NCBI RefSeq assembly: GCF_001375535.1
Contig: NZ_LN831197.1
Span: forward strand, 3,042,383-3,106,382
Length of the DNA stretch: 64,000 nt
Direction: 5' to 3'
Origin: Bacillus niameyensis
Lineage (GTDB): Bacteria > Bacillota > Bacilli > Bacillales > Bacillaceae_C
A model generated the notes under the pieces. That model was not told where the DNA came from and made no database searches. It saw only the letters and a program-made list of their open reading frames with translations. The position numbers were made by a program, and so were the translations under genes. Positions 33,281-39,366 of this stretch are shown here, in pieces; the first letter of the stretch is position 1; the number at the start of each line of letters is the position of its first letter.

Positions 33281-33928
33281 ATGACACAATTTATTCGAGA
33301 ACCTTTTAATGCATTATCTCACTTGGCAGGGGCGCTTCTTTCGGTAGTTGGTTTGATTTTGATGGTTATAAAAGTTTCTTTAAATGGTGGCTCCGCCTTA
33401 CAATTAGGTGCAGCTATTATGTTTGGAGTAAGTTTGATTTTACTTTACTCGGCTTCAACGACCTACCATTTAGTCATTGCAAAGGACAAGGTTATCGCTT
33501 TTCTCCGAAGGTTTGATCATTCGATGATATTTGCCTTAATTGCTGGCTCCTATGCGCCATTCTGTCTAATTTCATTAAAAGGGAAAATGGGCTGGATTGT
33601 GTTTTCGATTGTTGCGGTTATTGCACTAAGTGGAATTTTATTTAAGATGGTTTGGTTCAATTGTCCAAGATGGCTTTCTACAGTTCTTTATATTGCTCTA
33701 GGTTGGGTGATCGTCATTGCGATTGTTCCTTTAAGTTCTAATTTAGGGCCTGGCGGATTATTCCTTCTTATCTTTGGCGGAATATTGTATACGATCGGCG
33801 GAGTTATTTATGGGCTTAAACCAAAATTTTTAGAAATGAAACATTTAGGCTTCCATGAAATTTTCCATTTGTTCATTCTTGCCGGCAGCTTGTGCCACTT
33901 CTTTTCTGTTTATTATTTTGTATTATAG
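33281..33928 (+). CDS. Hemolysin III / TrhA (PAQR) family membrane protein
   Basis: The 215-residue protein has seven predicted helices and the PAQR motifs: FNALSHLAGA near residue 8, TTYHL near 60, RRFDHSMIF near 75 and the C-terminal HEIFHLFILAGSLCHFFSVY. Members may act as zinc-dependent hydrolases and affect membrane-lipid and energy homeostasis; haemolytic activity was found in the first Bacillus homologue. ATG 33281 follows GATAAGGGG. Single gene with its own promoter and terminator. Confidence 0.92.
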   Translation: MTQFIREPFNALSHLAGALLSVVGLILMVIKVSLNGGSALQLGAAIMFGVSLILLYSASTTYHLVIAKDKVIAFLRRFDHSMIFALIAGSYAPFCLISLKGKMGWIVFSIVAVIALSGILFKMVWFNCPRWLSTVLYIALGWVIVIAIVPLSSNLGPGGLFLLIFGGILYTIGGVIYGLKPKFLEMKHLGFHEIFHLFILAGSLCHFFSVYYFVL

Positions 33929-33935
33929 TTTGACT

Positions 33936-33968
33936 AAAAAGGCTATTGTCCTGAACAATAGTCTTTTT
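33936..33968 (+). terminator. Terminator after the TrhA-like gene
   Basis: AAAAAGGCTATTGT, loop CCTGA, ACAATAGTCTTTTTT. Strong stem and T run. Confidence 0.9.
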
Positions 33969-34024
33969 TGCAGGGATTTATTTTTAGTTGTCAAATAAAT
34001 ATAAAGGAAAGGAAGGTGGATCCT

Positions 34025-35185
34025 ATGACAAGAAGGCTTACGATGAGTATCCAAAATACATTACATACTTATAAAATCGACCCAAATAAACAAATCGTTA
34101 TTGATCGAGAAAAGGGGCAATATTTAGGTCATCCAGACTCGGTCTTGTTGGATGATGACCAAACGATTCTTACAGTCTATCCAAAAGGGCACGGTTTAGG
34201 GGAAGCATTGCTAAATAAAAGTAATGACGGAGGGAAGACTTGGCAAGGAAGGACGTTTGCAAACGAAACATGGAAGGATTCACGAGAAACGCCTACCATT
34301 TATAAACTTGATTTTAATGATGGCCGTCAAAAGCTTATTTCTATCTCAGGAGGCCCTGGATGGGGAGATGATCAGTTTAAAGGTTGGAAAACATCTCTTT
34401 CTACGAATCAAGGAGAAACGTGGAGTGATTATAAAGTTTGGTATGAAGGTACCCAAACGATTGTCGCAATGTCCAGTCTAGTGCGATTAAAGGATGAGAA
34501 TGGGAATTGGTTGGATAAATGGTTAGGCGTTTATCACAATCAACAATTTATCAATTATAAAACGTACCTGAGTTTTTCGGAAAATGGAAGGGAACAGTGG
34601 AGTGTACCAGAGTCTTTATTAAAGGACTATCGCGATATTGAAGCTGCTGTTCAACTATGTGAAGCGTGTATTTTCCGCTCACCTGATGAAAAAGAGCTTG
34701 TTTTAATAGCTAGAAGTCAATCCCATCTGCATCAGTCAACGATTTCCTTTTCAAAAGATGAAGGAAATCATTGGACAGAACCAAGGGAACTTCCTGGTTC
34801 CTTAAATGGAGAGCGTCATAAAGCAGCCTATGACCCAATCAGTGGCAGACTCTTTATTTCTTTTCGTGAAATCATCCTTGATTACAACAATGATGGGAAG
34901 ATCGAAGAGGATGATTGGATGGCAGGAGACTGGGTTGCATGGGTTGGTACATATGAAGATCTAGTGAATGGAAGCGAAGGAGAGTATCGAATCTTGTTAG
35001 GTGAAGACTTCACACCATCAAGGAAATCGGGAGACTGCGGCTATGCTGGAATTGTTGTAATGCAGGACGGTACTTTCTTTTTAAATTCCTATGGGTATTT
35101 TGATAAAGAGGAAGTCGAGCGGTTAGGAACAGAGGCAAAACCGTATATTATGGGGGTTCGATTTAAATTATCGGAGATAAAGTAA
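34025..35185 (+). CDS. BNR-repeat sialidase-fold protein
   Basis: The 386-residue protein has a six-bladed propeller pattern with Asp-box motifs SNDGGKTW (near 67), STNQGETW (near 125) and SFSKDEGNHW (near 241), and a possible active-site RHKAAYDP segment. There is no signal peptide, so it would act in the cytoplasm. Sialidase-fold glycoside hydrolases have many substrates; no sialic-acid genes are near, so sialidase activity is not assumed. ATG 34025 follows AAGGAAGGTGG; the reading frame is open back to 33968 without a better start. It is followed by the large tandem array. Confidence 0.78.
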   Translation: MTRRLTMSIQNTLHTYKIDPNKQIVIDREKGQYLGHPDSVLLDDDQTILTVYPKGHGLGEALLNKSNDGGKTWQGRTFANETWKDSRETPTIYKLDFNDGRQKLISISGGPGWGDDQFKGWKTSLSTNQGETWSDYKVWYEGTQTIVAMSSLVRLKDENGNWLDKWLGVYHNQQFINYKTYLSFSENGREQWSVPESLLKDYRDIEAAVQLCEACIFRSPDEKELVLIARSQSHLHQSTISFSKDEGNHWTEPRELPGSLNGERHKAAYDPISGRLFISFREIILDYNNDGKIEEDDWMAGDWVAWVGTYEDLVNGSEGEYRILLGEDFTPSRKSGDCGYAGIVVMQDGTFFLNSYGYFDKEEVERLGTEAKPYIMGVRFKLSEIK

Positions 35186-35330
35186 AAACTGAAGGGGAGC
35201 CTACCTTCAACCTAATCAATAATGAAGTTTGTTTTTGCGAAATTTCCCTAAGGATTTTAAGAAATATAAAAAAGAGGAAATACGCGGATCAAGATTACCG
35301 ATATTCATATACAATGATCCCTTTTTGAAA

Positions 35331-35369
35331 CGAGAAAACGCCGTTCACTTGGTGAACGGCGTTTTCTCG
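35331..35369. terminator. 18 bp-stem hairpin at the edge of the tandem array
   Basis: CGAGAAAACGCCGTTCAC (35331-35348), loop TTG, GTGAACGGCGTTTTCTCG (35352-35369): a perfect 18 bp stem. It lies 146 bp after the sialidase-fold gene and its last four bases (CTCG) are also the first four of the first 20 bp repeat. Being symmetrical, with GTTTTCTC on both strands, it can end transcription from either side. Confidence 0.8.
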
Positions 35370-37165
35370 CTCATAAAATCCGAAACTCGCTCATAAAATC
35401 CGAAACTCGCTCATAAAATCCGAAACTCGCTCATAAAATCCGAAACTCGCTCATAAAATCCGAAACTCGCTCATAAAATCCGAAACTCGCTCATAAAATC
35501 CGAAACTCGCTCATAAAATCCGAAACTCGCTCATAAAATCCGAAACTCGCTCATAAAATCCGAAACTCGCTCATAAAATCCGAAACTCGCTCATAAAATC
35601 CGAAACTCGCTCATAAAATCCGAAACTCGCTCATAAAATCCGAAACTCGCTCATAAAATCCGAAACTCGCTCATAAAATCCGAAACTCGCTCATAAAATC
35701 CGAAACTCGCTCATAAAATCCGAAACTCGCTCATAAAATCCGAAACTCGCTCATAAAATCCGAAACTCGCTCATAAAATCCGAAACTCGCTCATAAAATC
35801 CGAAACTCGCTCATAAAATCCGAAACTCGCTCATAAAATCCGAAACTCGCTCATAAAATCCGAAACTCGCTCATAAAATCCGAAACTCGCTCATAAAATC
35901 CGAAACTCGCTCATAAAATCCGAAACTCGCTCATAAAATCCGAAACTCGCTCATAAAATCCGAAACTCGCTCATAAAATCCGAAACTCGCTCATAAAATC
36001 CGAAACTCGCTCATAAAATCCGAAACTCGCTCATAAAATCCGAAACTCGCTCATAAAATCCGAAACTCGCTCATAAAATCCGAAACTCGCTCATAAAATC
36101 CGAAACTCGCTCATAAAATCCGAAACTCGCTCATAAAATCCGAAACTCGCTCATAAAATCCGAAACTCGCTCATAAAATCCGAAACTCGCTCATAAAATC
36201 CGAAACTCGCTCATAAAATCCGAAACTCGCTCATAAAATCCGAAACTCGCTCATAAAATCCGAAACTCGCTCATAAAATCCGAAACTCGCTCATAAAATC
36301 CGAAACTCGCTCATAAAATCCGAAACTCGCTCATAAAATCCGAAACTCGCTCATAAAATCCGAAACTCGCTCATAAAATCCGAAACTCGCTCATAAAATC
36401 CGAAACTCGCTCATAAAATCCGAAACTCGCTCATAAAATCCGAAACTCGCTCATAAAATCCGAAACTCGCTCATAAAATCCGAAACTCGCTCATAAAATC
36501 CGAAACTCGCTCATAAAATCCGAAACTCGCTCATAAAATCCGAAACTCGCTCATAAAATCCGAAACTCGCTCATAAAATCCGAAACTCGCTCATAAAATC
36601 CGAAACTCGCTCATAAAATCCGAAACTCGCTCATAAAATCCGAAACTCGCTCATAAAATCCGAAACTCGCTCATAAAATCCGAAACTCGCTCATAAAATC
36701 CGAAACTCGCTCATAAAATCCGAAACTCGCTCATAAAATCCGAAACTCGCTCATAAAATCCGAAACTCGCTCATAAAATCCGAAACTCGCTCATAAAATC
36801 CGAAACTCGCTCATAAAATCCGAAACTCGCTCATAAAATCCGAAACTCGCTCATAAAATCCGAAACTCGCTCATAAAATCCGAAACTCGCTCATAAAATC
36901 CGAAACTCGCTCATAAAATCCGAAACTCGCTCATAAAATCCGAAACTCGCTCATAAAATCCGAAACTCGCTCATAAAATCCGAAACTCGCTCATAAAATC
37001 CGAAACTCGCTCATAAAATCCGAAACTCGCTCATAAAATCCGAAACTCGCTCATAAAATCCGAAACTCGCTCATAAAATCCGAAACTCGCTCATAAAATC
37101 CGAAACTCGCTCATAAAATCCGAAACTCGCTCATAAAATCCGAAACTCGCTCATAAAATCCGAAT
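35366..37165. repeat. Tandem array, about 90 copies of a 20 bp unit
   Basis: The unit CTCGCTCATAAAATCCGAAA is repeated head to tail without spacers for 1,800 bp. By line count there are 90 units; I saw no substitution except the final base of the last copy. After it the sequence runs into degraded unit-like copies (CCCGCTCGAGATATATCCCA). Because 20 is not a multiple of 3, TAA occurs in every plus-strand frame once per 60 nt, and TGA does so on the minus strand; no long ORF is possible. It lies between convergent genes. It is not a CRISPR array because there are no unique spacers. Confidence 0.97.
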
Positions 37166-37219
37166 CCCGCTCGAGATATATCCCACTCTACTCACTAATA
37201 AGATTTTAAACTACAATAT

Positions 37220-38773
37220 TTATACAGCTTCCGAAGCTTTTTCTTTCCTTCGTTTACCGACCTTTTCCTCTTTCACCTTTAATTGTCCAATTCCTAATTC
37301 TTTCGCTTCCTGATTTAATGCCTTGATTAAACTAAATGTCATTAACGCTATTATAATAGAGAATGGAAGAGCTCCAATAATCATTGTGTTTTGCAGAGCT
37401 TGAAGGCCCCCTGAATAAAGTAGAGTAACAGATGTCATTGAAAGCAGGACGCCCCAAATCACCTTAACTTTATTACTTGGATTTAGCGTTCCATTAGCTG
37501 TCATCATACCTAAGACAAATGTTCCTGAGTCAGCAGATGTAATAAAGAATGTTCCAACTAATATCATCGATAGAATGGATAGTAGTAAGCTAAATGGGAA
37601 ATTTTCAAGGACTCCGAAAAGGATCTCTTCTGGTAACAAACTAGTTAATGAAATTGATCCTGCCATTTCGGTTGTAATCGCTGCACTTCCAAAATTCGAA
37701 AACCACAAGAAACCAATTAATGTTGGGATAAGTAAAACACAAAAAACAAATTCACGAATAGTTCTACCTTTTGATACTCTAGCGATAAATACCCCTACAA
37801 ATGGTGACCAAGCAATCCACCACGCCCAGTAAAAGATGGTCCAATCATTAATCCAGCTTCGAATGTCTTCGTTGAATGGAGCAATTCGAAGACCCATATT
37901 AATAAAGTTTTGGAAATAAGCCCCTACCGAATCAACGAATAGATTTAAGGTAAAAATGGATGAGCCTAAAATAAATACTGCTAAGAAAAGGGCGGCAGCA
38001 AGGCCCATATTTACATTACTTAAAATTTTGATACCTTTGCTCAAACCAGTTAACGCAGATATCATAAATAGGATCGTAACAACAAAAATAATGACCGATT
38101 GGGTTGTAAAATTACTTGGTACATCAAATAAGTAGGATAGACCTCCATTTATTTGCATGGCACCAAACCCAAGTGATGTGGCAACACCTAAAACGGTAGA
38201 AACAACAGCTATCACATCAATTATTTTACCGACTAATCCATCAGCATGTTTGCCAATAAGCGGTCTCAATGTTCTGCTAATTAAGCTTAATTCACCTTTT
38301 CTAAAAGTAAAGTAAGCAAGTGCCAACGAAACTACCCCATAAATTGCCCATCCATGGATCCCATAATGGAAGAAGGTAAACCTCAGTGCGTCCTTGACAC
38401 CTTGAGTCGTGCCAATTTCTCCTGTAGGCGAACTTATAGCATAGTGACTAAGCGGCTCATAAGCACCATAAAATATTAAACCAATTCCCATGCCTGCACT
38501 AAAGAGCATTGAAATCCAAGTTGGTGTTGAAAACTCAGGCTTATCCTCTTGCTTACCGAGCTTAATTCGACCGATTGGACTGACAAATAAATAAATACAT
38601 ACGATTACAAATAGCACTACTAAGATTAAGTAATACCAACCAAATGAATTGGTAATAAAATTTTGTGCGCTGCTAGTGATGCTTTCTAATGATTTGGGCA
38701 TTGCGATTCCCATAATAACAAGACCTGCGACGATTGCTAATGATACGTAAAAGACGATTGAAGCTTTCTTCAT
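37220..38773 (-). CDS. BCCT-family betaine/choline/carnitine transporter
   Basis: The 517-residue transporter has twelve predicted helices and the BCCT signature with the substrate-binding tryptophans in FYWAWWIAWSPFVGVFIARV (near 310-330). BCCT proteins (OpuD, BetP types) take up glycine betaine or related osmoprotectants with Na+ or H+. The start at 38773 (MKKASIVFYVSLAIVAG) gives the usual length; the frame is open to 38848, and the ribosome binding site GGGAG is 13 bases upstream. No terminator is seen between its stop and the 1.8 kb array, so the array is probably in its 3' UTR. Confidence 0.9.
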   Translation of the reverse strand: MKKASIVFYVSLAIVAGLVIMGIAMPKSLESITSSAQNFITNSFGWYYLILVVLFVIVCIYLFVSPIGRIKLGKQEDKPEFSTPTWISMLFSAGMGIGLIFYGAYEPLSHYAISSPTGEIGTTQGVKDALRFTFFHYGIHGWAIYGVVSLALAYFTFRKGELSLISRTLRPLIGKHADGLVGKIIDVIAVVSTVLGVATSLGFGAMQINGGLSYLFDVPSNFTTQSVIIFVVTILFMISALTGLSKGIKILSNVNMGLAAALFLAVFILGSSIFTLNLFVDSVGAYFQNFINMGLRIAPFNEDIRSWINDWTIFYWAWWIAWSPFVGVFIARVSKGRTIREFVFCVLLIPTLIGFLWFSNFGSAAITTEMAGSISLTSLLPEEILFGVLENFPFSLLLSILSMILVGTFFITSADSGTFVLGMMTANGTLNPSNKVKVIWGVLLSMTSVTLLYSGGLQALQNTMIIGALPFSIIIALMTFSLIKALNQEAKELGIGQLKVKEEKVGKRRKEKASEAV

Positions 38774-39366
38774 ACTTACTAAACAACTCCCAATTTTGAT
38801 TTGTTCAGAAAGGGTTTTACTTCGATTGGAGAACATATAAAAAAGCAAAACGAAAATTCAGAGGATTTTTTAAAAGAAGCAATTGTAGATAACCCTATAA
38901 AAGTGTTAACTGAACATAATTAGCTATACCTAATACCTTCGAGGAAAAATACAAAATTCTTAATAACTTAATTTGTAGTTATCAACTATGACCATTTTGA
39001 TAAGCGATTAAGAATAAATGTAAGACAGAAACATTGAATAGGTGAAGTTTACTAGGATTTTTCGAATACTTTAATAGTCTAACGTAAAAATTGGCATGAA
39101 GCACATGCGATATTTTAGCTTTATTGGAGTTATGTAGTTATTATCCATCCTGAGACGAAGCTACCCCGGTGTATTCTTAATAATCCCCCATATTACGCTA
39201 AATACTTGTTAAACATGAAGGTATGTTAAATAAACAATTGAACGAAAAGTGGAGTGAATTTTATTAAAGTGCTTGTGAAGAGTCATATCCGTTTTATTAG
39301 GAAATGATCTTTAAAGCTATAAAGGAAGCAATGTGCTAAAATGCTGGAATAAAGGGGGGAATCTAA
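38774..39366. other. 593 bp intergenic region without a recognised gene
   Basis: The region lies between the divergent BCCT and SMR genes. A TGCTAAAAT sequence (39334-39342) may be an extended -10 for the SMR genes. I searched it for a guanidine riboswitch, because ykkCD-like genes often have one, and found no convincing match. Nothing else is supported. Confidence 0.5.

Follow-up and report, generated by a model that had tools for sequence, protein, structure and literature searches.

An array of 90 tandem 20-bp units in the genome of Bacillus niameyensis, here called array A, is a hyper-expanded and homogenised member of a direct-repeat family that is scattered over the Bacillales and lies mostly between genes. 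In this family the presence of a flanking palindrome is associated with uniformity of the array, and whole arrays at fixed loci differ between species in unit and in copy number. These observations lead us to propose that the family is a non-coding satellite and that its turnover is driven from the flanking palindrome, probably by slippage or recombination; we give this reading a probability of roughly 0.55. Array A was found in a window of 64,000 nucleotides (NZ_LN831197.1, positions 3,042,383 to 3,106,382), to which the coordinates below refer.

Results and Discussion

Splitting the array directly into units confirmed most of what the first-pass annotation had read from the letters: about 90 copies of a 20-bp unit (90 at 35366-37165, 89 of them identical), a single base change in the last copy (it ends in GAAT, the others read CTCGCTCATAAAATCCGAAA), no spacers (all units are spaced by exactly 20), no ORF (no frame of at least 80 aa overlaps the array) and a degraded unit-like copy at the right edge (Table 1). 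Tandem Repeats Finder (TRF) delimits the repeat to 35366-37172, with a period of 20, 90.3 copies and 99% matches. At its left edge the array overlaps a perfect inverted repeat of 18 bp, absent from that annotation, and the right arm of this palindrome covers the first 4 nt of unit 1. As single-stranded DNA the palindrome region folds with z = -6.2, and none of 200 shuffled sequences folded as well. The array lies between the converging 3' ends of the genes for a BNR-repeat protein and a BCCT transporter. The idea that the array may be bent DNA can be kept tentatively: its unit shows stronger AA/TT phasing than 95% of shuffles (p about 0.05), and each of 13 related units, picked by hand, exceeds the mean of its own shuffles.

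Table 1. Features of array A and its surroundings
Feature	Position	Strand	Basis
BNR-repeat (sialidase-like) protein, left neighbour, points at array A; start codon uncertain	33968..35185	+	ORFs, Pfam
Putative lacZ-type gene remnant, last 15 codons and stop (YADQDYRYSYTMIPF*)	35281..35328	+	40/47 nt identical to intact lacZ 3' end
Palindrome, 18-bp perfect arms, TTG loop, terminator-like	35331..35369	.	Identical at array B
Array A, 89 identical 20-bp units CTCGCTCATAAAATCCGAAA	35366..37145	+	Tandem Repeats Finder, direct split
Unit 90, one base changed (GAAT), end distal to palindrome	37146..37165	+	Direct split
Degraded unit-like edge CCCGCTCGAGATATATCCCA	37166..37185	+	Sequence reading
BCCT betaine/carnitine/choline transporter, right neighbour, points at array A; start codon uncertain	37220..38848	-	ORFs, Pfam

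A search for the unit over the rest of the genome, as proposed with the first-pass annotation, returned one exact copy elsewhere and so led us to array B. This array consists of 93 units, 92 of which differ from the array A unit at one base while the last is the array A unit itself. It is located 1.09 Mb from array A on the opposite strand, between the 3' end of an intact lacZ (Pfam GH2/Bgal_small_N) and an isochorismatase-family gene (Pfam). The palindromes of the two arrays show no difference, and both loci share the order lacZ end, palindrome, array. At array A, the 48-bp stretch 35281-35328 reads as all that is left here of a second, diverged lacZ-type beta-galactosidase gene: it matches the lacZ end at array B at 40 of 47 nt, and the substitutions are conservative. 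Since the last 15 lacZ codons and the palindrome stand as they do at array B, array A can be placed at the end of a former lacZ-type gene, and the palindrome is apparently the lacZ terminator. A third array in this genome, array C, has 26 degenerate copies and lies between the gene for an MFS/PAS protein and a moaA-like gene (Pfam). Array C (L050 3288-3952) contains two open frames, 199 and 208 aa long, that overlap and consist mostly of repeat units; if annotated, they would probably be spurious genes.

Within the genus these features are rare. Among 16 genomes, that of B. niameyensis included, the inner 31 nt of the palindrome (up to 3 mismatches) occur only at arrays A and B; neither two exact tandem copies of the array A unit nor the array A palindrome was found in the 15 others, and a related array is present in two of the 16 (B. 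niameyensis and G014). We surveyed 17 lacZ loci of at least 67% identity in relatives, and all 16 with readable sequence have other downstream sequence and no array; one of them has a lone core. Five of the 15 relatives contain two lacZ loci of at least 67% identity. In a search for an empty site, the BCCT orthologs in G005 and G009 were found in other contexts.

The Bacillales repeat family

Members of the family share a period of 20-21 bp, a core GCTCRT/TCGCTCAT and a variable remainder; array A conforms, with the core TCGCTCAT, this period and more than the three units needed for inclusion. Scanning public genomes for three TCGCTCAT cores at 19-21 bp spacing gave at least 114 stretches; among the matches listed are 80 loci, 47 of which were kept as Bacillales. 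The hosts include Neobacillus, Metabacillus, Fictibacillus, Cytobacillus, Rossellomorea, Pontibacillus, Tenuibacillus, Pallidibacillus and Bacillus, among others. The other 33 listed loci include 27 with periods of 7, 21 or 42 and four in other phyla that have the core in 20-bp units. Outside the Bacillales, 20-bp TCGCTCAT arrays occur at L083, L087, L100 and L158, by chance or by wider spread. Also outside the order, L105, L108, L110, L118, L122-L124, L130, L135, L136, L139 and L146 contain 7-bp repeats (TCGCTCA or similar); these are another kind of repeat that has the core in common by chance or otherwise.

Across the order, arrays were detected in 17 of 397 sampled genomes and 9 of 135 genera, and at the level of the family in 2 of 34 genomes; these figures are lower bounds because exact three-core patterns miss degenerate arrays. 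Successive cores are spaced by 20 or 21 or near a multiple, apart from 12 spacings of 18-19, with the first two spacings at each locus being fixed by the search pattern. In 87 unit-sized windows beside the search match, which were thus not selected for the core, the frequency of the commonest base is 0.41-0.67 at positions 1-12, compared with 0.32-0.50 for positions 13-17. Most of the family arrays that we read are heterogeneous; A and B exceed all the others in length and rank with the most uniform.

Only one of 52 arrays lies inside a predicted frame (94 aa). Arrays are found between converging genes in 12 of 41 classifiable cases (18 of 133 background gaps, p = 0.03) and between divergent genes in 4 of 41 (33 of 133, p = 0.05), a weak placement signal, given that some loci are orthologous and the gene calls simple. 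Their position beyond gene ends suggests that the arrays are mainly tolerated. An RNA element was considered and rejected: there is no Rfam match at the arrays (the interval 33900-38000 gave one match below the gathering score, with 23.1 bits vs 58, E = 0.19; at 10 array loci there were two matches, neither at an array), and between co-directional genes the arrays are unbiased in strand (10 vs 15).

TRF revealed higher-order repeats in Metabacillus arenae, where different 18-21 bp units are combined in blocks of 102 bp (L133) and 225 bp (L106). Fictibacillus also has a second family of units, GCTCGTATTTTTCRTATGGC and near variants, with the same palindrome caps at L338, L340, L341, L344-L346, L348 and L353-L355. 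The core pattern may overlook arrays with other remainders, which may be common.

Palindromes and array uniformity

Many arrays in Fictibacillus (the genus as identified here) end on the right in a palindrome GCTCRTSCAGC...GCTGSAYGAGC, the arm of which starts with the core of the unit itself. We defined a cap as a palindrome with an effective stem of at least 9 that overlaps the terminal unit. Array A falls under this definition, with a palindrome that differs from the Fictibacillus type in sequence and in side. Uniformity was quantified as the divergence between adjacent units. The input of 88 loci included 40 of the 47 scan loci, with L109 excluded and six Fictibacillus loci replaced by re-fetched copies. 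Three loci were removed as letter-identical (L241, the same place as L111; L148 and L295, from other genomes) and two more for having fewer than three units. From the remaining 83 we excluded six uncapped arrays that were truncated by N or a contig end, and we retained three truncated capped arrays.

Of 18 capped arrays, 17 have a divergence of at most 0.013, and the value of 0.033 in L294 is owed only to masked bases. Among the 59 uncapped, uncut arrays the median is 0.283 and the lowest value 0.008 (p = 1.1e-10 against the 18 capped); this lowest value belongs to L285, which has a degraded cap and was classed as uncapped in this array-level test, as was L291, which has a broken one. The difference persists in Fictibacillus only (16 capped vs 13 uncapped arrays, p = 3.7e-6). 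When Fictibacillus arrays are grouped by locus, with L291 and the newly fetched arrays described below excluded and L285 classed as capped, the four capped and seven uncapped loci do not overlap in uniformity (p = 0.003).

Since the cap rule was set after the Fictibacillus flanks had been inspected, we carried out a new search by palindrome alone. This search found 38 palindromes in 11 of 18 genomes of the Fictibacillus genus, 18 of them at arrays already known. Among the 20 newly fetched palindromes, 19 have one or more 20-bp units next to them, some of these being of the second family GCTCGTATTTTTCRTATGGC; at L352 the palindrome is flanked by degenerate units only. Ten of the new arrays have at least three units: six are wholly uniform and two vary in the farthest unit alone, while L343 and L351 are capped yet heterogeneous and thus are counterexamples. 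These arrays are not fully independent of the first set because many are at already known loci. L291, with its broken palindrome arm, shows mild heterogeneity (0.027), and the uncapped L281 is about as low (0.030). At one position of the palindrome stem the paired bases covary (C-G in 27 and G-C in 5 of 33 distinct palindromes, with 1 mismatch; p = 2.5e-5); the signal at another position is weaker (6 A/C mismatches and one G/T among 33; p = 0.05).

The position of variant units is also associated with the palindrome. Ten capped arrays of at least three units contain any variant, counting A, B and the degraded-cap L285, and in eight of them variants occur only towards the end away from the palindrome (L343 and L351 are the exceptions); A and B count as one origin. 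The mean relative distance of variant units from the palindrome is 0.90 (permutation p = 1e-5), compared with 0.45 in 11 uncapped controls (11 of 13, since L285 was classed as capped here and L291 excluded). Decay at the far end is hidden from the unit walk, which ends as soon as it meets a poor core.

Concerted change at orthologous loci

The first-pass annotation had taken the homogeneity of array A as a sign of recent expansion or ongoing homogenisation. This view finds support, and at orthologous loci the arrays of other species change in concert. By their flanks, the first Fictibacillus arrays fall into seven uncapped loci and four capped ones. Four species have a unit ending in GTCTAGAA at capped locus i and two have one ending in GTCTGGAA; each array is uniform, and 3 to 25 full units precede the cap (one array is cut by Ns). 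Three unit types occur at capped locus ii, where five species have 3 to 12 units in uniform or nearly uniform arrays and a sixth (L351) has a heterogeneous one. At capped locus iii an intact palindrome accompanies a uniform or near-uniform array in four species; in the ortholog L291, where one palindrome arm has been destroyed, the units form a two-variant mosaic. The newly fetched loci show that even the unit family can differ at one place. At locus iv, units of the GCTCGTATTTT...TATGGC family are present in L340, matched on both flanks, and in L346, matched on the right flank alone, and other species contain units of the ...CCCTGGGAA or ...CCTTGGGAA type. In a further pair, matched on both flanks, L345 contains one second-family unit and L357 contains 15 units of the ...CTTGAGAA type. 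At uncapped locus v, at least two unit variants are common to all three arrays compared.

In two Fictibacillus genomes (G301 and G433), 14 placed arrays among the matches listed, from at least nine locus groups, carry their core on a single strand with respect to the replication fork. The rule holds for capped and uncapped arrays, and a cap would be met first; one G301 array, at 1.73 Mb, lies where GC skew changes sign. By GC skew, arrays A and C of B. niameyensis fit this rule and B does not; in Neobacillus OS1-33, where the position of the origin was unchecked, the strands are mixed. A replication-strand signal for the whole family was therefore not adopted. The fork reaches array and palindrome in one order at A and in the reverse order at B, so that slippage on a single strand cannot account for all arrays.

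Comparison with known repeat systems

Bacterial VNTR/MIRU minisatellites are tandem non-coding units of variable copy number, as are the arrays here. With one genome per species, copy number differs between species at orthologous Fictibacillus loci. To our knowledge, VNTR/MIRU loci are defined neither by a core common to several genera nor by a capping palindrome. BOX, REP/BIME and REPIN elements are intergenic, contain palindromes and lie at gene ends, and in BOX the palindrome is joined to a repeated part; the unit described here differs in not being palindromic and in being reiterated up to 93 times. CRISPR arrays likewise have old, degraded units at their far end. Array A contains no unique spacers between repeats, its units being contiguous and 89 of 90 identical. 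Plasmid iterons are bound by a cognate Rep at an origin; array A lies on a contig of chromosome size.

The family works like the STAR elements of staphylococci, the closest known kind, but it is not one. Those elements are defined by a 14-bp motif, T(G/A/T)TGTTG(G/T)GGCCC(C/A) (PMC3532100), which does not occur in the array A unit CTCGCTCATAAAATCCGAAA. Both systems have a short, conserved and directly repeated motif in intergenic DNA, spacers particular to locus and lineage, variable copy number and patchy occurrence among species, and at the gapR locus the last STAR spacer is distinct from the inner ones (PMC3532100). The intergenic direct repeats found here likewise have recurring, locus-specific spacers. 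STAR differs in its motif TNTGTTGNGGCCC, its 40-bp spacers and its maximum of 7 motifs, and the main text of that report does not contain the words hairpin or inverted (PMC3532100). In the open-access literature searched (subscription papers lie mostly outside it), we found no description of the core or of palindrome-capped bacterial arrays. Within this literature the statement of the first-pass annotation that it recognised no described element of this form holds, but array A is one of a Bacillales family that behaves like STAR.

Alternative explanations

The arrays could instead be binding sites, with a DNA-binding protein on the core TCGCTCAT at intervals of two helical turns; selection would then maintain core and phasing, and the remainder would be free to drift. 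A core kept across genera with varying linkers, positions 1-12 better kept than 13-17, the spacing of 20-21 and its multiples and, weakly, the phased A-tracts agree with this explanation. We nevertheless consider it unlikely, given the patchy occurrence (17/397 genomes, 2/34 in the family), the 16 lacZ loci in relatives without arrays, and a second Fictibacillus family that keeps only GCTCGT and replaces the first at some loci. Similarly doubtful is a simple young expansion of A and B by ordinary slippage or unequal crossing-over, with the palindrome as a mere gene terminator. Unit and palindrome are indeed missing from the 15 other genomes of the genus, and many arrays, judged by eye, follow hairpins that resemble terminators at the ends of genes. 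Youth could explain uniform arrays, but the capped Fictibacillus loci are not young, since they are common to several species, and most arrays at these loci are uniform; the location of variants away from the palindrome also speaks against a simple expansion.

Movement of palindrome and array as one mobile element, by which B would have given rise to A, appears highly improbable. It would account for the lacZ end, palindrome and array that A and B have in common at different places and in different orientations. However, there are 7 differences in 47 bases between the two lacZ ends, which makes the flank of array A look like a separate gene remnant and not a fresh copy of B, and Fictibacillus arrays recur at fixed loci. 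Plasmids, phages and viral contigs gave no match, though in some of these searches the low-complexity filter of BLAST may hide repeats; with this reservation, a phage or plasmid origin was likewise rejected. It is also very improbable that the copy numbers are an assembly artefact. Both A and B are close to 1.8 kb, and their copy numbers are those of the assembly, but one 4.67-Mb contig passes through both arrays, the lone variant unit of each is the last one, far from the palindrome, and a 3.93-Mb contig of another species (G301) contains arrays of 25 and 20 full units.

A possible mechanism

On the preferred reading, turnover driven from the palindrome, the array would change as DNA and would need no product. 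Replication or repair machinery would pause at the flanking palindrome, and the nascent strand would slip, or break and re-pair, by whole units, so that units on the palindrome side would be repeatedly copied and lost. Unequal recombination after breakage at the palindrome would have the same outcome. We infer that the palindrome is the cause of uniformity and that slippage is the step rather than unequal recombination. More tentatively, and with somewhat less than even confidence, we picture the palindrome as a polar pump that adds or replaces adjacent units, such that arrays are rewritten in concert, at times with quite another unit, and older units are displaced distally, all without a dedicated enzyme. 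Human minisatellites with a flanking hotspot and the leader end of CRISPR arrays exhibit similar polar turnover.

Steps of this kind have precedents. Where direct repeats lie on both sides of a hairpin, a polymerase that pauses at the hairpin base and re-anneals with the next repeat produces a deletion; such slippage between direct repeats has been reported in vitro and in vivo, and Bst polymerase does not slip (PMC4134008). Mycobacterial DNA is destabilised by direct and inverted repeats (PMC3519483). If hairpin slippage is extended to an array that lies on one side of the hairpin, an extension of our own, then uniformity, polarity and copy-number change would all follow from it. As the palindrome of A and B is unrelated to that of Fictibacillus and lies on the other side of the unit, the parallel for array A rests on one case.

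Implications

Being inverted and 1.09 Mb apart, arrays A and B are possible sites of chromosome inversion in B. niameyensis. How tandem repeats remain uniform is an old question. With capped and uncapped arrays, orthologous loci and a naturally broken cap, a single genus offers a ready test of the idea that a short palindrome is enough to drive concerted evolution.
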